From NCBI GenBank assembly GCA_021777335.1, contig JAJYDT010000023.1, forward strand, positions 1 through 32,525: a DNA stretch of 32,525 bases. Direction: 5' to 3'. Shown piece by piece: positions 2,190-10,135 of the stretch (position 1 is the stretch's first letter; each line of letters begins with the position of its first letter). Below the pieces are notes generated by a model. It was not told the DNA's origin and ran no database searches. It worked only from the letters and a program-made list of their open reading frames with translations. Origin of the DNA: Pseudomonadota bacterium. GTDB taxonomy: Bacteria; Pseudomonadota; Gammaproteobacteria; Acidiferrobacterales; Acidiferrobacteraceae. The position numbers were made by a program, and so were the translations under genes.

Positions 2190-2702
2190 TCAGCGTCGGT
2201 CGGTCGTGACGACGCTGACGATGCCGCTCAGAATGGCGGCCGGCGGCGGCGGGCATCCGGGAACCGTGAGATCCACCGGGATGATGTCGGCCACTGACCC
2301 ACGGATGGCATAACCCGACCCGAAAATACCCCCGGTACAGCCGCAATCGCCGACCGCGATGACCCATTTCGGGTCCGGGGTCGCGTCGTACACGCGCTTG
2401 AGCGCGCTTTCCATATGCCGGGATACCGGACCCGTCACGAGCAACAGATCGGCATGCCGCGGGCTGGCCACAAATTTGATGCCGAATCCCTCGAGGTTGT
2501 AGTACGGGTTATTGACTGCATGGATCTCCAGCTCGCACCCGTTGCACGAACCGGCATCCACGTGACGGATTCCCAGGGCCCGACCGAAGCGCTGATGGAT
2601 CTGCGCACGGAGGCCGGATTCTTTGGGCCGTTCGCCTGCTGGCCTTGCGGCTCGTTCGGAGACGACCCCGACCTTGATGACCTGCCTCAGCGTACGCAGC
2701 AT
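2190..2702 (-). CDS. hyfI: HyfI/HycG/NuoB-like [4Fe-4S] small subunit of an Ehr-type complex
   Basis: This 170-residue protein is the last gene of the operon. In related complexes this subunit carries the single [4Fe-4S] cluster nearest the large-subunit active site (cluster N2 in complex I). All four expected cysteines are visible: C53 and C56 in GSCNGCELE, C120 in GDCGCTGG and C150 in PGCPPPP. C122 is a fifth nearby Cys. The protein should therefore still transfer electrons even though the partner large subunit has lost its metal site. The frame is open further upstream, but ATG 2702 is chosen because GGAGG lies 5 nt before it and the homologous region begins there. It follows the HyfG-like gene by 13 nt and is surely co-transcribed with it. 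Confidence 0.88.
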   Translation of the reverse strand: MLRTLRQVIKVGVVSERAARPAGERPKESGLRAQIHQRFGRALGIRHVDAGSCNGCELEIHAVNNPYYNLEGFGIKFVASPRHADLLLVTGPVSRHMESALKRVYDATPDPKWVIAVGDCGCTGGIFGSGYAIRGSVADIIPVDLTVPGCPPPPAAILSGIVSVVTTDRR

Positions 2703-2715
2703 GATTGCCTCCGCG

Positions 2716-4260
2716 TCAAAGATCCTGCCCGCTGTAGGACAGGTTGAATGACTTGTTGATGAGTGGAAAATCCGGAACGATATTGCCAATCGTCGCGTGC
2801 TCCACCACCGGCCAGTTCTGCCAGGAGGGGTCATGCGGATGGCAGCGGCGGATCCGGCCGCCGTCGCCGGTTTCCAAAGCCACGAGTACCGGGCCACGCC
2901 ACCCCTCCACCAGGCCTACGCCAAATCCGCCGGCCGGTACATCGGGCAGAGCGGCGCCGCATTCCGTGCGCGGCAGATTCTCAAGTATGATCCGGCTCAG
3001 GCGCAGCGATTCGAACGTCTCCTGGAACCGTACCGAAACGCGCCCGGCGACGTCTCCGTCGAGACTGCCCGCGATGCGGACGTTGAGCGCATCGTAGGGC
3101 GCATACACCGGGTCACAGCGCCAGTCCCAGGTCTGGCCGCTTGCCCGGCCCGCAAGTCCGACTAACCCAAGTTGCCGGGCAAGCGCTGGCGCAACGCGCC
3201 CCGTTCCTGAGAACCGGTCCTGAAGGCCCGCGTGATCGTCGTAGATCTCGCGCAGGGTGTTGAGCTCGGACTCGATTCCGGGGATCGTCTCCAGCAGGAT
3301 CTGCCGGTGTGTTTCATCGAGGTCGCGGGCCACGCCCCCCGGGACAACGACATCCATAAGGTAGCGTGCGCCGAATGCTGCCTGATTGATCCGGAGGAGA
3401 TCCTCTTTGAGGCGCGAAAACTGGGCCAGCGCAATTGAAAATCCGGCGTCGTTTCCGAGTGCACCGAGATCCCCCAGGTGGTTGGCAATGCGCTCCCGTT
3501 CAAGATAGAGCGCACGCAACCAGATGGCGCGCACCGGCGGACTGATGCCGCAGATCATCTCCAGCGCCATGCAGTACGCCCAGGAGAATGCCACTGCGGA
3601 ATCGCCGGACACACGGGCGGCGAGTTTGTGGGCCTGCAGGGCCGGCAGCGTCTCGAAGCGTTTTTCGATGCCCTTGTGCGTATATCCAAGCCGCTCCTCA
3701 ATGCGCAACACTTTTTCCCCCACGACCGAAAAGCGAAAATGGGCAGGTTCGATCGTGCCCGCGTGTACCGGGCCCACAGCGATCTCATGCACGCCGTCGC
3801 CGGTGACGCGCACAAAGGGATAGCGCTCGTCGGCATCAGCATGGGGTCTCGTGGCATCGTAATCATGACGCAAAGGAAAGCAGTCGTCGGGCCAGGCCGC
3901 ATGACGTACCCACGAGCGCCGATCGGCGGCTTCGGCGCGTACCCCGAGCAGATCATAGGCCGCGCGCTGCATGCGGTCCGCGGCCGGGAAAATGTCGGCG
4001 ATCGACGGGAAGTGCGGTGTTGCGGCGGGCAGCAGAAGTTCGATGACCACCAGCCCGACGTCGTCCTGCAGGGCGACCCGGAGCAGAAAGCCGCCGGTGG
4101 TATCCCGCACATCTGAAGCCCACAAGGCATGGATGAAACCTCCCGCCTCATGTACGGCACTGCAGAGGGAGCGCAGCTGATCCGGGCGCACGGGGATGCG
4201 CCGCATCGGCACCGCGCCTGCGAGCGTCTCGACAGCCAATCCATAGACGGTGTAATCCAT
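2716..4260 (-). CDS. hyfG: HyfG/HycE-like large subunit lacking the NiFe ligands (Ehr-type)
   Basis: This 514-residue protein has the HycE/HyfG layout: a NuoC-like 30-kDa domain (about residues 1-150) fused to a NuoD-like 49-kDa domain. GPVHAGTIEPAHFRF (about 163-177) and LGYTHKGIEKRFE (191-203) match the family. Group 4 hydrogenases have RxCGxC at the first metal site. Here it reads RVSGDS (216-221), with Ser at both Cys positions. At the C-terminus the usual DPCxxC is replaced by NLSYSG (506-511). All four nickel-iron ligands are therefore absent and H2 chemistry is not expected. No C-terminal maturation peptide follows. This is the hallmark of Ehr complexes, which are grouped between complex I and group 4 hydrogenases. 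The substrate is unknown. ATG 4260 starts 6 nt after the HyfF stop. Confidence 0.9.
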   Translation of the reverse strand: MDYTVYGLAVETLAGAVPMRRIPVRPDQLRSLCSAVHEAGGFIHALWASDVRDTTGGFLLRVALQDDVGLVVIELLLPAATPHFPSIADIFPAADRMQRAAYDLLGVRAEAADRRSWVRHAAWPDDCFPLRHDYDATRPHADADERYPFVRVTGDGVHEIAVGPVHAGTIEPAHFRFSVVGEKVLRIEERLGYTHKGIEKRFETLPALQAHKLAARVSGDSAVAFSWAYCMALEMICGISPPVRAIWLRALYLERERIANHLGDLGALGNDAGFSIALAQFSRLKEDLLRINQAAFGARYLMDVVVPGGVARDLDETHRQILLETIPGIESELNTLREIYDDHAGLQDRFSGTGRVAPALARQLGLVGLAGRASGQTWDWRCDPVYAPYDALNVRIAGSLDGDVAGRVSVRFQETFESLRLSRIILENLPRTECGAALPDVPAGGFGVGLVEGWRGPVLVALETGDGGRIRRCHPHDPSWQNWPVVEHATIGNIVPDFPLINKSFNLSYSGQDL

Positions 4261-4266
4261 CTGTAG

Positions 4267-5718
4267 TTATCCAATGATCCTGGCCGCCTCGCGATACCAA
4301 TCAGCGAGGTAGTGGGGAATATAGAGCCCAAGTATCAGTACGATGGTCAAATGCGTGAATACGGGCAGCAGCGTCGGCGAATGGGGCAGGCGTTTCAGGT
4401 CAGTTTCGCCGAATACCATGGCCTGGACGCGCGAAAAGATCGCGCCGAACGCGACTGCAAGGGCCAGCAGAAGGATCGGCGTTGCCCACGGGTGATCCCG
4501 CATTGCAGTGATGAGAATCAGGAATTCGCTGGTGAATACACCGAATGGCGGCATTCCCAGGATCGCCAGGGTGCCGATCATCAGGCCCCAGCCCACCGTC
4601 GGATTGACCGTAATAAGACCACGAATCTTGTCCATGGCCTGGCTGCCGGCCTTCTGGGTGGCGTGGCCTACGGTAAAGAAGATGGACGACTTGGTCAGTG
4701 AGTGTACGGTCATGTGCAGCAGCGCGGCGAAGTTTGCGATCGGTCCTCCCATGCCGAAGGCAAAGGTGGCAATCCCCATGTGTTCGATCGAGGAGTAGGC
4801 GAACATTCGTTTGATGTCTTTCTGCCGCCACAGCAGGAACGACGCCACGACGACTGACACCAGACCGAAACCCATCATCAGATTCCCGGCCAGATCGGAG
4901 TGCACCGATCCTTCCACCAGCACCTTGCAGCGCACCACGGCATAGAGCGCGACATTGAGCAGCAGACCTGACAGTACTGCGGACACCGGCGTGGGACCCT
5001 CGGCGTGGGCATCCGGCAGCCAGTTGTGCAACGGAACCAGGCCCACCTTGGTGCCGTAACCCACCAGCAGGAATACAAAGGCGAGCGAGAGCACTGTCGG
5101 TTCCATCTGCCCTTTAACCTGGTTCAGGCGGGTCCACAGCAGCGCCGTGGTGCCCACATTCCCCAGAACCTTCTCGGCCGCGAAATACAGCAATATGGTG
5201 CCAAACAATGCCTGGGCAAGACCGACGCCGCACAGGATAAAGTATTTCCATGCCGCCTCGATACTCGCTGGCGTGCGATAAAGCGACACCAGCAGTACGG
5301 TGGTGAGGGTGGCCCCCTCCATCGCCACCCACAGTATGCCCATGTTGTTGGTGGTGAGCGCCAGCAGCATCGTAAACATGAATAACTGAAACATGCTGTG
5401 GTAAAGCCGCAACTGACGACGATTGAGACGGCCGTGGTGCTGCTCGATGCGCATGTAGGTACGGGAAAACAGCGAGGTCGTGAATCCGACAAATGAGGTC
5501 AAGGCCACCAGAAATACGTTGAACGGGTCAATAAAAAACTCCTCGTTTCCGGTCAGTATCGGCCCGTGCGCGATCACGTGCATGGTGAGCCACGCACCGG
5601 CTGCAAAGGTACCAGCGCTGACCAGGATGTTTACCTCTGCCGCCCAGTCACGCTCTCCAACCAGGGCCAGCAGCAGGCTGCCGAGCGGAGGGAGAACAAG
5701 AAGAATGATCAGTTCCAT
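4267..5718 (-). CDS. hyfF: HyfF-like proton-translocating antiporter-type membrane subunit
   Basis: This 483-residue polytopic protein belongs to the NuoL/M/N (Mrp antiporter-like) family and is predicted to move ions across the inner membrane. The key charged residues of the family are in place: E134 in VAMEGATL, K224 in YGTKVGLVPLHNWLPDAH, H231 and H238. PTPVSAVLSG and RMFAYSSIEHMG are further family signatures. The frame is open upstream, but ATG 5718 (MELIILLV) begins the first membrane helix and lies one base after the HyfE stop, so translation is probably coupled. With HyfB it gives the complex two antiporter-type modules. HyfD, the third such subunit in E. coli hydrogenase-4, is not found in this window. 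Confidence 0.9.
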   Translation of the reverse strand: MELIILLVLPPLGSLLLALVGERDWAAEVNILVSAGTFAAGAWLTMHVIAHGPILTGNEEFFIDPFNVFLVALTSFVGFTTSLFSRTYMRIEQHHGRLNRRQLRLYHSMFQLFMFTMLLALTTNNMGILWVAMEGATLTTVLLVSLYRTPASIEAAWKYFILCGVGLAQALFGTILLYFAAEKVLGNVGTTALLWTRLNQVKGQMEPTVLSLAFVFLLVGYGTKVGLVPLHNWLPDAHAEGPTPVSAVLSGLLLNVALYAVVRCKVLVEGSVHSDLAGNLMMGFGLVSVVVASFLLWRQKDIKRMFAYSSIEHMGIATFAFGMGGPIANFAALLHMTVHSLTKSSIFFTVGHATQKAGSQAMDKIRGLITVNPTVGWGLMIGTLAILGMPPFGVFTSEFLILITAMRDHPWATPILLLALAVAFGAIFSRVQAMVFGETDLKRLPHSPTLLPVFTHLTIVLILGLYIPHYLADWYREAARIIG

Positions 5719-5719
5719 G

Positions 5720-6382
5720 TCAATCCTCTTTGAGCGATTCCAGGTTGTGCAGGTCGAGACTGTCAAACTGTTCGCGGATGTGGAAGAAAAAGACGCCGAG
5801 AATCACCATGCCCACGAGTACGTCCAGCGCCACGCCAAGTTCGACAACCATCGGCATCCCGTAGGTAGCGCTGGTGGCCGCGAAAAACAGCCCGTTCTCC
5901 ATGGCGAGAAAACCGATTACCTGGGTGACCGCCTTGCGCCGCGTGATCATCATGAGGAATGACAGCATCACGATCGCAAGAGCGATCCCAAGGGTGCTCC
6001 TTGTGATCGTGCTCGCGAGCCGCGATATGGGTTCGGCGAGGGTGAAGGCGAAGATCACCAGCAGCAGACCGATGAGCATCGTTGCTGACGCGTTGAGCAG
6101 TGTCTCGGTCTCCCATTGGGCGCCGAGGCGGCGGATCAGCCGGTTCAGGATCAATGGCAGGAAGATCACCTTGAGGACCAGTGTCAGGGCCGCGGAGTAG
6201 AAGAGCTGGTATTGATGCGTGTTCCAGGCCACGACGACGATGGACACGAATAACGTGCCGCCCTGCAATGCGAACAGATCGACCAGGGTCAGTACGCGCC
6301 GTTGTGACAGCATGGAGAAGGACAGCAGCAGCAGTACCGCGGCACACAGATCGATCAGTTGCGATGAGAGCGGAGTCACCAT
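5720..6382 (-). CDS. hyfE: HyfE-like (NuoK-related) membrane subunit
   Basis: This 220-residue, very hydrophobic protein has about six or seven predicted membrane segments. Its length and position fit HyfE, the hydrogenase-4 subunit whose C-terminal part resembles NuoK, rather than the roughly 100-residue NuoK itself. GFLAMENGLFFAA carries the membrane-embedded Glu typical of NuoK/HyfE. The C-terminus is hydrophilic (FFHIREQFDSLDLHNLESLKED). The open frame extends upstream into the HyfC gene, but the start is set at ATG 6382 (MVTPLSS), 4 nt after the HyfC stop, because upstream residues are not hydrophobic in the family pattern and belong to the shadow of HyfC. Its stop is one base from the HyfF start. 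Confidence 0.87.
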   Translation of the reverse strand: MVTPLSSQLIDLCAAVLLLLSFSMLSQRRVLTLVDLFALQGGTLFVSIVVVAWNTHQYQLFYSAALTLVLKVIFLPLILNRLIRRLGAQWETETLLNASATMLIGLLLVIFAFTLAEPISRLASTITRSTLGIALAIVMLSFLMMITRRKAVTQVIGFLAMENGLFFAATSATYGMPMVVELGVALDVLVGMVILGVFFFHIREQFDSLDLHNLESLKED

Positions 6383-6386
6383 GGGG

Positions 6387-7316
6387 TCAGTGTCCCAGCA
6401 GCAGGTGTACGAGCAGTCCCAGCACCGCCAGAAGGAATGCGGAGGCCAGAAATTCAGGAACCCTGAAGATGCGCATCTTGGCATTGATTGTCTCAACCAG
6501 GGCAAGTCCGAAACCCACGGCGACCAGCTTGATGAACAGGGCCGGTACCGCGATTGCCAGGTCAGGCAGGTTGCCCAGCCCTTGCGCGAGACCCCAGGGT
6601 ACGAATAACGCGAACCCGATGCATACATAGTTGAAGAGCTTGAGTGCCGATGCCCACTCGATCAGTGCGAGATGTCTTGCCGAATACTCGAGCACGGTCG
6701 CCTCGTGGATCATGGTGAGTTCGAGGTGGGTCGACGGGTTATCGACCGGGATGCGGGCGTTCTCGGCCAGCAGCACCATCAGGAAGGAGATGCTCGCAAA
6801 GGCGAGGCTCGGGTAGATTGCCAGGGGGCCATGTGCCAGCACGTTCACCATGGTGGGAAGCGACGTGCTGTGGGAGATGAGTGACGCGGTGAAGAACACC
6901 ATGAGCAAGGCCGGTTCGGCGAGAAACCCCACCAGCATCTCACGCCGCGCCCCCATGGAACCGAAGGCTGTGCCGATGTCCATGGCCGCGAGCGCCAGGA
7001 ACATACGGGCGGTGGCGAACAGGCCGACCAGCGCGATGGTGTCGGCCGCATCGGCAAATGGAAGCCCGGTCCACAGCGACGGGATGATCCCGGCAGCGAG
7101 ACCCATGGAAGCAAATTGAACATAGGGCACAAGCCGGAACAGCGGGGAGGCGTTCGTGGCGATTACGGCATCCTTGTGGAATAGCTTACGGATCAGTCGG
7201 TATGGCTGAAGTATGCCCGGGCCACGCCGGTTCTGGAGCCACGCCCGGCACTGATTGACCCAACCGATCAGCAGCGGGGCGACGATGATTGCGAAGGCGA
7301 TTGCGATCAGCTGCAT
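6387..7316 (-). CDS. hyfC: HyfC/HycD/NuoH-like membrane subunit
   Basis: This is the NuoH-type subunit that anchors the peripheral arm to the membrane and forms part of the quinone-site region in complex I. Family signatures are LQNRRGPGILQPYRLIRKLF near the N-terminus, GSMGARREMLVGFLAEPALL in the middle and ENARIPVDNPSTHLELTMIHE, the acidic loop facing the large subunit. With ATG 7316 it is 309 residues, close to HycD (307). A GTG at 7337 would overlap the HyfB stop as GTGA and add seven residues. Neither start has a clear Shine-Dalgarno, so translation may depend on coupling to HyfB. A much longer open frame upstream is the shadow of HyfB. Confidence 0.9.
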   Translation of the reverse strand: MQLIAIAFAIIVAPLLIGWVNQCRAWLQNRRGPGILQPYRLIRKLFHKDAVIATNASPLFRLVPYVQFASMGLAAGIIPSLWTGLPFADAADTIALVGLFATARMFLALAAMDIGTAFGSMGARREMLVGFLAEPALLMVFFTASLISHSTSLPTMVNVLAHGPLAIYPSLAFASISFLMVLLAENARIPVDNPSTHLELTMIHEATVLEYSARHLALIEWASALKLFNYVCIGFALFVPWGLAQGLGNLPDLAIAVPALFIKLVAVGFGLALVETINAKMRIFRVPEFLASAFLLAVLGLLVHLLLGH

Positions 7317-7333
7317 GGTAAAGGCGCGGGTAT

Positions 7334-9337
7334 TCACAGCACAAAGACCAGCAGGGCGAGAAGGGTGAGAAAACTGAAAAGCAGGTATACCGAGATCCGG
7401 CCTCGCTGGATCACGGCGGTCATGCGGGCGACGCCCTGGATCACGGTGGCCACGGGTGCATACAGCCAGTACCAGAAATGGTCGTCTACCTGCACGCGGT
7501 AATGGGGTGCTGTGTCGAAGGGTGATGGCAGTGTGCGGCTCATGCGGAAGAATGGCTCGAAGATCTGGCGGATCGGTTGCCCGAAGCCCTCTGCGGTGTC
7601 CTGCATGCGAGCCGTCACCACGGGGAAGCCGCACCCCCAGGGCTCGGTCTTCCGGACCTTGCCGTGGTAGAGCAGGTGGACAGCAACCGTCACCAGCGTG
7701 ACGAGCGCCACCGTGCTTAACATGAATAGCACCGGGCTATAGGACGCCCGTTCGGGTGCAATAGGTGCGAGCAGCCACCAATGCTGCAGCCGCCCGCCGA
7801 GAGAGGCCCCCAGCAGTTCCCGGCTGACGCTGTTCAGGAGAGCCAGAATCGGGACAGGGAGGAGGCCGAGCAGCACACAGCCCAGCGCGAGCCACAGAAG
7901 ACCGATGCGTTCCGGGCGACCGCAGTCGTGGGCGTCCTGCAGCGTCGGCTCGCGCGGCTGGCCCAGGAAGATCACGCCGTAAAACTTGACCATTACATAG
8001 GCGGCCAGCGCCGATACCAGCGCCAGCGCGGCGGCCCCGATCGGCAGCAGCATGTTAATGAAGCTGTGGGGCAAACTGGGGGTGAAAAGGAATGCCTGCA
8101 GCAGCAGCCATTCCGAGACGAAGCCGCTCAAAGGCGGCAGGCCGGCGATGGCGAGCGTACCAATGAGCGTCAGCCAGGCCACCCATGGCATCCGGTGAAT
8201 CAGGCCCCCCAGTTTGCCGAGGCTGCGTTCCCGGGTCGCATGCAGTACCGAGCCGGTGCTGAGGAACAGGAGGCTTTTTGAAAACGCATGGCTCAGACAA
8301 TGGTAAAGGGTGGCGGCGAGCGCGACCGCCGCCAGCAATGCCATGTGGAATGCGTGGAAGATGATGGTCAGACCGACACCGAGAAAGATGATGCCGATGT
8401 TCTCGATCGAGGAATAGGCCAGAAGCCGTTTCATATCGGTCTGAGCCGCGGCAAAGACCACCCCGAATAATGCGGTGAACAATCCAAGACCGAGTGCCAG
8501 CAGGCCCCACCACCACAGTTGTGCGTGCAGGAAATCAAATGTGACGCGAAGCAGGCCGTAGATGGCGACCTCCAGCATCACGCCACTCATCAGCGCGGAG
8601 ACCGGCGAGGGCGCTGCCGGGTGAGCCTCCGGAAGCCACACGTGCAGCGGTACCAGTCCGGCCTTGGCGCCGAAGCCGAACAGGGCGAGTACGAATGCCA
8701 GGCTCGCCCACAAGGGGGTCAGGTGGGCGGCGCGCATGGCATCGAACGTGAAGCGCCAGCTGCCGCCCTGCAGTACTCCGAAACACAGCAGGATGCTGAT
8801 TGCACCGATGTGGGCGATAAGCAGATAAATAAATCCGGCGCGGCGGATCTCCGGAAGGCGGTGTTCGGTCGTGACCAGGAAGTACGAGGAGAGCGCCATG
8901 GACTCCCATGCGACCATGAACAGATAGGCGTCATTTGCCAAGACAACGACCGCCATGCTGGCGAGAAACACATGGTATTGCAGACACATCAGCCCGGGAG
9001 GTGTGCCCTCTCCGGGGCGAAGATAGCCAGCGGAAAACATGCTGATGCCGGCGGAGGTAAACCCGATCAACATCAGAAAGAAGCGGGATAAGCCATCGAG
9101 TCGCACATGAAACGGCAGTGAGGGCAATCCGAGCGGCAGGACCAGGGTTTGCGCCGGAAGTGCCAGACCTGACAGCGCCATCGCCCCGAGCAATAGCCCC
9201 AAGAGGGCGCTGACCGGGAACAGGATGCGTCCCACCCACGGCACACTCCGTATTCTGACGAGCCCGAGCAGTCCGATCACAAGCCACGCCACCGGAATCA
9301 GGGTGATCCCGAAAAACGCGCAGGTCGGATCTGTCAT
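7334..9337 (-). CDS. hyfB: HyfB/HycC/NuoL-like proton-translocating membrane subunit
   Basis: This first gene of the operon encodes 667 residues, matching HyfB/HycC (about 610-670). It is a NuoL-type antiporter-like subunit with about 15 or 16 membrane segments. Functional residues are present: E145 in AWESMALSSYFLV, K225 in GAKAGLVPLHVWLPEAHPAAPSPVSALMSG, H232 and H239. A second Lys region, TDMKRLLAYSSIENIG, is also conserved. The long C-terminal extension (about 560-667) includes KTEPWGCGF and FWYWLYAPVATVIQG, which corresponds to the lateral-helix region of HycC. ATG 9337 is preceded only by a weak ribosome site. A promoter about 115-150 bp upstream drives the operon, leaving a leader with possible secondary structure. 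Confidence 0.92.
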   Translation of the reverse strand: MTDPTCAFFGITLIPVAWLVIGLLGLVRIRSVPWVGRILFPVSALLGLLLGAMALSGLALPAQTLVLPLGLPSLPFHVRLDGLSRFFLMLIGFTSAGISMFSAGYLRPGEGTPPGLMCLQYHVFLASMAVVVLANDAYLFMVAWESMALSSYFLVTTEHRLPEIRRAGFIYLLIAHIGAISILLCFGVLQGGSWRFTFDAMRAAHLTPLWASLAFVLALFGFGAKAGLVPLHVWLPEAHPAAPSPVSALMSGVMLEVAIYGLLRVTFDFLHAQLWWWGLLALGLGLFTALFGVVFAAAQTDMKRLLAYSSIENIGIIFLGVGLTIIFHAFHMALLAAVALAATLYHCLSHAFSKSLLFLSTGSVLHATRERSLGKLGGLIHRMPWVAWLTLIGTLAIAGLPPLSGFVSEWLLLQAFLFTPSLPHSFINMLLPIGAAALALVSALAAYVMVKFYGVIFLGQPREPTLQDAHDCGRPERIGLLWLALGCVLLGLLPVPILALLNSVSRELLGASLGGRLQHWWLLAPIAPERASYSPVLFMLSTVALVTLVTVAVHLLYHGKVRKTEPWGCGFPVVTARMQDTAEGFGQPIRQIFEPFFRMSRTLPSPFDTAPHYRVQVDDHFWYWLYAPVATVIQGVARMTAVIQRGRISVYLLFSFLTLLALLVFVL

Positions 9338-9396
9338 GGTGTTGCCATTACCTTGCGGACACCGTGGTGAAACAAGCCCAATCAGGCCAGGAATGT

Positions 9397-9429
9397 GGCG
9401 ACCGTGACTGGTGTCGTCCGTCGCCAGTC
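9397..9429 (-). other. Mutually exclusive stems in the leader of the hyf-like operon
   Basis: In the roughly 115-nt leader, GGCGAC (9397-9402) can pair with GTCGCC (9420-9425). GACTGG (9406-9411) can pair with CCAGTC (9424-9429). The two pairings share bases 9424-9425 and interleave, so they compete or form a pseudoknot. No known riboswitch class is recognised. The symmetry is exact, but its meaning is inferred. Confidence 0.3.
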
Positions 9430-9440
9430 AAGCCAGTGCC

Positions 9441-9469
9441 TTGACATGAGCCGCGGATATTATCATTCT
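9441..9469 (+). promoter_or_regulatory. Promoter of the ribbon-helix-helix gene
   Basis: A perfect -35 TTGACA (9441-9446) is followed 17 bp later by CATTCT (9464-9469), which matches TATAAT at the important second and last positions. It would start transcription about 25-27 bp before the ATG at 9503. The -10 overlaps the first TTCTA operator box. Confidence 0.45.
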
Positions 9470-9487
9470 AGTATACTTCTATGTAAA
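9459..9487 (-). promoter_or_regulatory. Sigma-70-type promoter of the hyf-like (Ehr) operon
   Basis: On the minus strand TTTACA (plus 9482-9487, 5 of 6 to consensus) is separated by exactly 17 bp from GATAAT (plus 9459-9464, 5 of 6). This is the best promoter upstream of the operon. It overlaps the divergent promoter of the RHH gene and two of the three operator boxes, so the two transcription units share one control region. Confidence 0.6.
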
Positions 9488-9492
9488 TAGAA
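9466..9492. promoter_or_regulatory. Candidate RHH operator: three TTCTA boxes at 11-bp phasing
   Basis: TTCTA occurs at 9466-9470 and 9477-9481, and its inverse TAGAA at 9488-9492. All three start exactly 11 bp apart, which places them on one face of the helix. The last two form the palindrome TTCTATGTAAATAGAA (9477-9492). Short repeated boxes at one helical turn are how Arc/MetJ/CopG-type ribbon-helix-helix dimers usually bind. The array covers the -10 of the RHH gene and the -35 and spacer of the opposing operon promoter. Confidence 0.55.
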
Positions 9493-9502
9493 CACATCTT
9501 GA

Positions 9503-9703
9503 ATGCCACGGGAAAACCGCACCGCCAGGCTCACCGTCCTGATCGATCCCCGCAAGAAGGCGGTCTTTGAGGAGTTGTGTGCGGAAGAGGATGTGACACC
9601 ATCACAGATGGTGCGAAAGCTGCTACGGGAATATATTGAACGCCGTACCGGACAGCCGTGGCGCCCCGAGGAATACGTCAAGCACCGCGCCCCCAGGAAA
9701 TAG
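9503..9703 (+). CDS. Small ribbon-helix-helix DNA-binding protein, likely regulator of the adjacent operon
   Basis: This 66-residue protein begins with a basic segment and a beta strand (RTARLTVLIDP, about residues 6-16). Helix A follows (RKKAVFEELCAEEDV), then a turn with TPSQMVR and helix B (MVRKLLREYIERRTG). This is the MetJ/Arc/CopG fold. The basic C-terminal tail ends KHRAPRK. Such proteins act as dimers whose strands enter the major groove. No toxin gene follows, so an antitoxin role is not supported here. Its divergent position next to the hyf-like operon and the phased boxes in the shared promoter point to control of that operon and of itself. ATG 9503 has no good ribosome site, and the leader is short. 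The target is inferred. Confidence 0.75.
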   Translation: MPRENRTARLTVLIDPRKKAVFEELCAEEDVTPSQMVRKLLREYIERRTGQPWRPEEYVKHRAPRK

Positions 9704-10074
9704 CCCCGGTGTGCGGGCTGGCACAAGGGATCTCGAGGGGGATTCCCCCGGGACTCCTGTTTTTTCAGTGTCTCCAGATCCTTCAGATCCGGGGGATGCC
9801 CTGAGTTCCTCTGTCTGTTTCACAGACGTGATCCCCCCGGTGCGGCCTGTCCATGCCCGGAATCAGCGGTATCAACGCCGGGCCATCGGCCAGAACCTTG
9901 AGTGAGATGGCGGGTGTCGTGGCGTGGTCTGTCGGGTTCCTGGAGGTGGGTGACGTATCGCGCTGGCGATCGCGGGCATGCGGCCAGCGTTCTACCGAAG
10001 AGACGGATCCGGCGCTCCCAGGCCAGCCCGTAGGCGAGGGTCAAACGGAAGCCCCGCAAGCGTCTTGTCGCTAG
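9704..10074. other. Non-coding stretch with several hairpins between the RHH gene and bioF
   Basis: No convincing gene is seen here. Just after the RHH stop, AGCCC (9702-9706) pairs with GGGCT (9715-9719). GGGGG (9737-9741) then pairs with CCCCC (9745-9749), followed 10 nt later by six T's (9760-9765). Either may contribute to termination. A nested inverted repeat lies at 9789-9840 and is listed separately. An open frame on the minus strand (9820-10059) lacks recognisable motifs and was rejected. Confidence 0.4.
9789..9840. repeat. Nested inverted repeat
   Basis: The outer arms CCGGGGGAT (9789-9797) and ATCCCCCCGG (9831-9840, one extra C) enclose a perfect inner hairpin. In the inner hairpin GTCTGT (9813-9818) and ACAGAC (9822-9827) surround the loop TTC. 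The result could be a two-stem RNA, a terminator element or a protein site. It lies between two plus-strand transcription units. Confidence 0.4.
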
Positions 10075-10107
10075 TTGTCAACATTGGGATCAGATTTCGG
10101 TTGACTG
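10075..10107. promoter_or_regulatory. BirA-type biotin operator upstream of bioF
   Basis: TTGTCAACA (10075-10083) and GGTTGACTG (10099-10107) form an inverted repeat with a 15-bp spacer. The core GTCAAC/GTTGAC is perfect. The geometry and sequence match the bacterial BirA box (TTGTMAACC-N15-GGTTKACAA). The right half overlaps the -35 of the bioF promoter, so binding of biotinyl-AMP-loaded BirA would block RNA polymerase when biotin is plentiful. Confidence 0.75.
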
Positions 10108-10128
10108 TAAATTCCCGCGGATTAGACT
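10101..10128 (+). promoter_or_regulatory. bioF promoter, predicting a leaderless transcript
   Basis: TTGACT (10101-10106) and TAGACT (10123-10128) are separated by 16 bp. Transcription would begin around 10134-10136, which is at the A of the bioF ATG. No Shine-Dalgarno is visible upstream of that ATG. The -35 lies inside the BirA-like box. Confidence 0.6.
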
Positions 10129-10135
10129 GCGGCTC

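Follow-up and report, generated by a model that had tools for sequence, protein, structure and literature searches.

An RHH gene and a helically phased box array shared by Ehr operons and SulP transporter genes

Comparison of the sequences around a gene for a 66-residue RHH protein reveals a conserved array of 8-bp boxes at intervals of one helical turn. The array and the RHH gene occur together, and their partner is exchanged between Ehr and SulP. The RHH gene lies in the window, the whole stretch of 32,525 nucleotides that was analysed, back to back with an operon for an Ehr complex. Taken as a whole, these patterns quite likely reflect a local RHH regulator, most likely a repressor, that acts on an 11-bp-phased array and is portable between Ehr and SulP. 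The literature searches found neither an earlier account of this RHH in connection with Ehr or SulP nor a dedicated regulator of Ehr complexes.

The Ehr operon, the RHH gene and the boxes between them

All six subunits expected of Ehr are encoded in one operon on the reverse strand. Its first gene specifies a HyfB-like antiporter subunit (7334–9337; NF005086, E 1e-264), and the others specify a NuoH/HyfC-like subunit (6387–7634; PF00146), a HyfE-like subunit (5720–6628; NF008556, 94.7 bits against a cut-off of 136), a HyfF-like antiporter subunit (4267–5766; NF005045, E 2e-259), a fused NuoC–NuoD-like large subunit recognized by profile matches (2716–4260) and a NuoB-like small subunit with the expected FeS-cluster cysteines (2190–2897). 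For the NuoH/HyfC-like and NuoB-like genes these are the longest open reading frames, with true starts probably further in. A motif search found no CxxC anywhere in the 514-residue NuoCD-like protein, which implies that the large subunit lacks Ni-site ligands. By this missing motif, an Ehr complex is a better fit for the operon than a hydrogenase. Described Ehr complexes likewise combine HyfB-C-E-F-G-I-like subunits with an absence of CxxC Ni ligands, and their function is stated to be unknown (PMC10284858). Clusters of hyfBCEFGI have been reported in At. ferrooxidans (PMC7735108) and C. metallidurans (PMC2864759).

The RHH gene (9503–9703, forward strand) is present in a single copy in its genome. 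Its product, which the earlier note had recognized as an RHH protein, matches the Pfam family RHH_9 (PF19839, 81.8 bits against a cut-off of 23.4, E 3e-23). Between the two transcription units, a promoter scan of 9300–9800 recovered one promoter-like site only, the sigma-70-type promoter of the Ehr operon (TTTACA-17-GATAAT, 10/12, reverse strand, reading from 9487 to 9459), just as had been claimed. The scan did not pick up the weak candidate promoter of the RHH gene, TTGACA-17-CATTCT (9441–9469, forward strand; hexamers at 9441–9446 and 9464–9469), which was read from the sequence and has the same spacing in four related loci (L002, L012, L013 and L060).

We searched 84,980 species genomes for homologues of the RHH protein and found 80 relatives. 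Upstream flanks were visible for 76, and 67 of these face a divergent Ehr operon, so the divergent promoter region that the earlier note had described as common to both units is a recurrent arrangement. Five adjoin a SulP transporter gene, one (L037, from Dyella monticola) is next to a remnant of hyfB only, and three have something else.

Upstream sequences were aligned on ATTATCAT, and column conservation was measured in 45 non-redundant loci. The alignment revealed operator-type boxes of 8 bp at offsets −11, 0, +11 and +22, with unconserved spacers of 3 bp between them. Mean information in the three boxes that did not serve as the anchor was 0.62 bits per column, compared with 0.17 in the spacers, a level reached by none of 1,000 shuffles. 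In the window the register of 8-bp boxes and 3-bp spacers runs through 9459–9488. Box 2 (9459–9466, ATTATCAT) is the strongest conserved element, with 1 to 2 bits per column, and also carries the leftward −10, GATAAT; box 3 (9470–9477, AGTATACT) has conserved outer A and T; and box 4 (9481–9488, ATGTAAAT) overlaps the leftward −35, TTTACA. The slot of box 1 (9448–9455, GAGCCGCG) is degenerate or lost, and in many relatives it holds ATGATAAT, which completes a palindrome. The best copies among relatives read ATGATAAT-N3-ATTATCAT, and the window's copy, with box 1 lost, is among the weaker ones. Even so, boxes 4 and 2 together, with zero mismatch, occur once in its genome. Most of the Rhodanobacteraceae genomes tested contain the palindrome only once, in the intergenic region of RHH and Ehr or of RHH and SulP.

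Presence of the array and of the RHH gene

A matrix for the array was trained only on Ehr-linked sites and then applied to held-out SulP promoters and to promoters without the RHH gene. It recognized the array at all seven held-out SulP promoters that adjoin an RHH gene (scores 15.7 to 38.8), at none of 20 SulP promoters without RHH (maximum −6.8) and at none of 15 Ehr promoters without RHH (maximum 5.3). Background scores had a 99% level of 4.3 and a maximum of 17.3, and the window's array scored 19.1 when left out of training. The earlier note had named relatives that keep the operon and lose the RHH gene and the boxes independently as the pattern contrary to its reading; the opposite was found at these 15 Ehr promoters. 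Control of the Ehr operon and of its own gene by the RHH protein is thus a well-supported prediction.

Could the conserved blocks merely be divergent promoters (leftward TTYACA-17-GATAAT), with no binding by the RHH protein, or binding at another site? Boxes 2 and 4 do match the leftward −10 and −35 in position and in their 17-bp spacing, so constraint on the promoter may account for some of the conservation of these two boxes at divergent loci. However, boxes 1 and 3 are conserved though they lie outside the hexamers, and the 35 RHH-less Ehr and SulP promoters have no array. Arrays also occur away from the RHH promoter. In Burkholderia there is one at hyfB, with the RHH gene about 1 kb away, and another upstream of yjdM; in Sulfuricella pSCD the array at SulP and that at RHH are separate, with 2 kb between them; and Pantoea has arrays at yjdM and at RHH. 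Most of the genomes with such distant arrays also have one at the RHH gene. Finally, at two loci with a displaced RHH gene (L027 and L067) the palindrome has remained at hyfB, and in Dyella monticola (L037, 5336–5887) hyfB is reduced to a 183-codon remnant while the RHH gene and a perfect palindrome survive the recent loss of Ehr. Together, these patterns argue that the array would be an operator and not just a promoter, and we consider the promoter-only explanation unlikely.

Several further features of these loci were noted. The extra DNA between hyfB and the intact RHH gene spans 4844–6001 in L027 and 4778–4943 in L067, and in the latter it is apparently a second, broken RHH copy. The array copies upstream of yjdM, which encodes a zinc-ribbon protein, or of its operon with a spermidine synthase-like gene lie at 5072–5112 in L255, 5076–5116 in L256, 2088–2128 in L259 and 5041–5081 in L261 (Burkholderia and Pantoea). 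Genes for YoaK and spermidine synthase-like proteins recur beside the RHH gene, also in L086.

Alternatively, the palindrome might belong to a different regulator encoded by the host, such as one of the Fur family, with the RHH gene as one more member of its regulon. Fur boxes have 7-1-7 arms, TGATAAT-N-ATTATCA, and the TGATAAT...ATTATCA of the array resembles them. The arms in the array are 3 bp apart, not 1, so it does not conform to a Fur box. Unlike the sites of a global regulator, the palindrome occurs once per genome in most genomes, and its presence tracks the RHH gene across classes, including on plasmids and megaplasmids. We therefore regard a host regulator as quite improbable, and return to the RHH protein as the likely ligand of the array.

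The same alignment bears on which bases form the boxes. The earlier note had taken as the operator three pentamers (TTCTA, TTCTA and TAGAA, within 9466–9492), and these are present as claimed, starting at 9466, 9477 and 9488, exactly 11 bp apart. A triple of any pentamer, in either orientation and at exactly 11 bp, arose in about 0.08% of Markov shuffles of 9400–9502 and in 0.24% of shuffles of the AT-rich core, a chance of about 0.1–0.2%, and it occurs three times in the whole window. The periodicity was thus unlikely to be pure chance and called for an explanation. As written, however, the pentamers are very improbable operators: each runs from the last base of one box across the spacer to the first base of the following box; they are exact in only 4, 2 and 1 of the 45 non-redundant rows; and their inner three bases, being unconserved spacer, are among the least conserved columns. 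In this genome the spacer sequences are, as it happens, TCT, TCT and AGA, so that the right period was noticed and the wrong boxes drawn. Comparison of the intergenic region in relatives, a check that the earlier note had suggested, thus upholds the array in 11-bp register and not the pentamers.

The RHH protein, its predicted action and the origin of the locus

The AF2 model of the RHH monomer (pLDDT 84.7) has helices at residues 16–28 and 33–49 and an extended N-terminal stretch. Its nearest PDB folds by Foldseek are the RHH proteins CopASO, PutA, ParG and CopG, with a TM to target of about 0.85, but with E above 0.1, the chain being so small. In an alignment of 31 relatives, R9, T11 and L13 of the predicted DNA-contacting strand are invariant, as is Cys26 in helix 1 (codon 9578–9580). 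The protein has no ligand domain, and Cys26 is the only obvious candidate for a sensor and the only hint to the relieving signal; redox or metal sensing by this residue is possible. A function as a plasmid or phage replication regulator was rejected, given that the NCBIfam RepA subfamily scores only 24 bits against a cut-off of 87 and that there is no PHROG. That the protein is the orphan antitoxin of a toxin–antitoxin locus is barely credible: CopASO and other antitoxins rank among its closest folds, but no co-transcribed toxin gene of type II was found in the window or the related loci examined, the next gene, bioF, is more than 400 bp off, the downstream genes vary, and the conserved partners are Ehr or SulP. 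As a co-regulated partner, bioF was ruled out because its downstream position is not conserved. The roughly 430 bp between RHH and bioF (9704–10135) hold no obvious gene.

We are reasonably confident that the target of the RHH protein would be the box array. On this proposal, it would recognize half-palindromic boxes of 8 bp whose consensus is ATGATAAT or the complement of this, ATTATCAT. If it behaves like Arc and RelB, each box would take up one dimer in its major groove, and dimers on adjacent boxes, placed 8 + 3 = 11 bp and therefore one helical turn apart, may cooperate on one face of the DNA. The −35 and −10 of the Ehr promoter and the presumed −10 of the RHH gene are all covered by the array at 9459–9488, with the degenerate slot at 9448, and its occupation would thus switch off both transcription units at once. 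From this overlap, the protein probably represses Ehr and itself, and predicted autorepression is plausible. Some RHH proteins, such as AmrZ, also activate.

The closest known systems are small RHH repressors. The Arc repressor of phage P22 and CopG are, like the window protein, small and of one domain; both repress their own promoters, and their operator half-sites are one helical turn apart. The window protein has no sequence similarity to them beyond the fold, and its system differs: there are as many as four boxes of 8 bp, the target is bioenergetic and the partners can be exchanged. In E. coli, the RHH protein RelB binds four short repeats on one face of the helix, with critical spacing, and is autoregulated (PMC2812701). 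The proposed array resembles relO in its short repeats on one helix face, whereas relO has 6-bp repeats in 12-bp half-sites, no spacer and a toxin partner, as against 8-bp boxes, 3-bp spacers and no toxin here.

The origin of the locus appears to be separate from that of the genome around it. No RHH gene was found in 17 sampled genomes of the organism's own family. Ehr is present in 13 of them, with HyfE only about 50–60% identical, and the closest relative, G096 from another family, has 79% identity in RHH and 87% in HyfF. This distribution points to lateral acquisition, and the RHH–Ehr unit (2190–9703) was probably acquired as a cassette. The own-family Ehr operons were dropped as a test set, as they have Ehr but neither RHH nor the array. 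Seven of these RHH-less operons (L150, L151, L161, L241–L243 and L245) share a different conserved stretch, TATTACGTTATGTTACATTATATAG, upstream of hyfB, and in L151 a KfrA_N DNA-binding protein, perhaps a replacement regulator, is encoded divergently from hyfB. Another RHH-less Ehr operon (L154, 4632–6755, in G045) is divergent from a transketolase gene.

Exchange of Ehr for SulP

In an even draw of 369 genomes at class level, the RHH gene was found in 15, all of different genera. Seven copies are beside Ehr, six beside SulP and two (L251 and L252) beside neither; one of these two is without an array. The earlier note had proposed a switch dedicated to the Ehr operon. The tie of the RHH regulator to the Ehr locus stands, but exclusivity does not, since the same RHH and array serve SulP in other lineages. 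Among 147 genomes drawn around Rhodanobacter glycinis, Ehr occurs in 22 and a DauA-type SulP in 23, and no genome has both, compared with 3.4 expected (P = 0.017 without phylogenetic correction). In the same draw, RHH accompanies Ehr in 11 genomes (P about 1e-6) and tracks a clade of 70–78% identical Ehr, not the 59% clade. In the RHH protein tree, which is coarse because it rests on only 54 columns, the SulP label requires at least four changes on well-supported branches, and the SulP-linked copies of Luteibacter are nested among Ehr-linked ones. The regulator and array may thus form a portable module, attached in other lineages to a DauA/YchM-type SulP instead of Ehr.

The RHH-linked SulP proteins best match NF008660, the DauA/YchM model. 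Inorganic carbon was an attractive first guess for their substrate, weakened by the far better fit of the DauA model than of BicA. DauA of E. coli has been reported to be a C4-dicarboxylate transporter active at acidic pH (PMC5703999). In an acid-tolerant Nitrospira, hyfBCEF was reported to be upregulated; the authors read the complex as a hydrogenase (PMC13109103). These observations suggest that Ehr and SulP could have a common role at low pH or in anion handling. We tentatively suggest, as a possible though doubtful extension, that the mobile RHH gene and its 11-bp-phased array have been re-attached repeatedly to Ehr or DauA-type SulP because the two can stand in for each other physiologically, for example in withstanding low pH or in the proton-coupled movement of inorganic carbon or dicarboxylates. 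If so, Ehr would be a redox-driven machine for handling ions or acid, taking the place of a secondary anion transporter.

With the 41-bp array model one can search for the remaining members of the regulon, in addition to yjdM, already a probable member. Ehr complexes are widespread, and an RHH regulator with a defined site, on Ehr or on DauA-type SulP, provides a concrete handle on their purpose. The occurrence of the RHH gene and its boxes beside SulP in related bacteria is a new clue to the role of Ehr, and the signal that relieves the proposed repressor, or an ability of SulP to replace Ehr, would point to what the complex is for.
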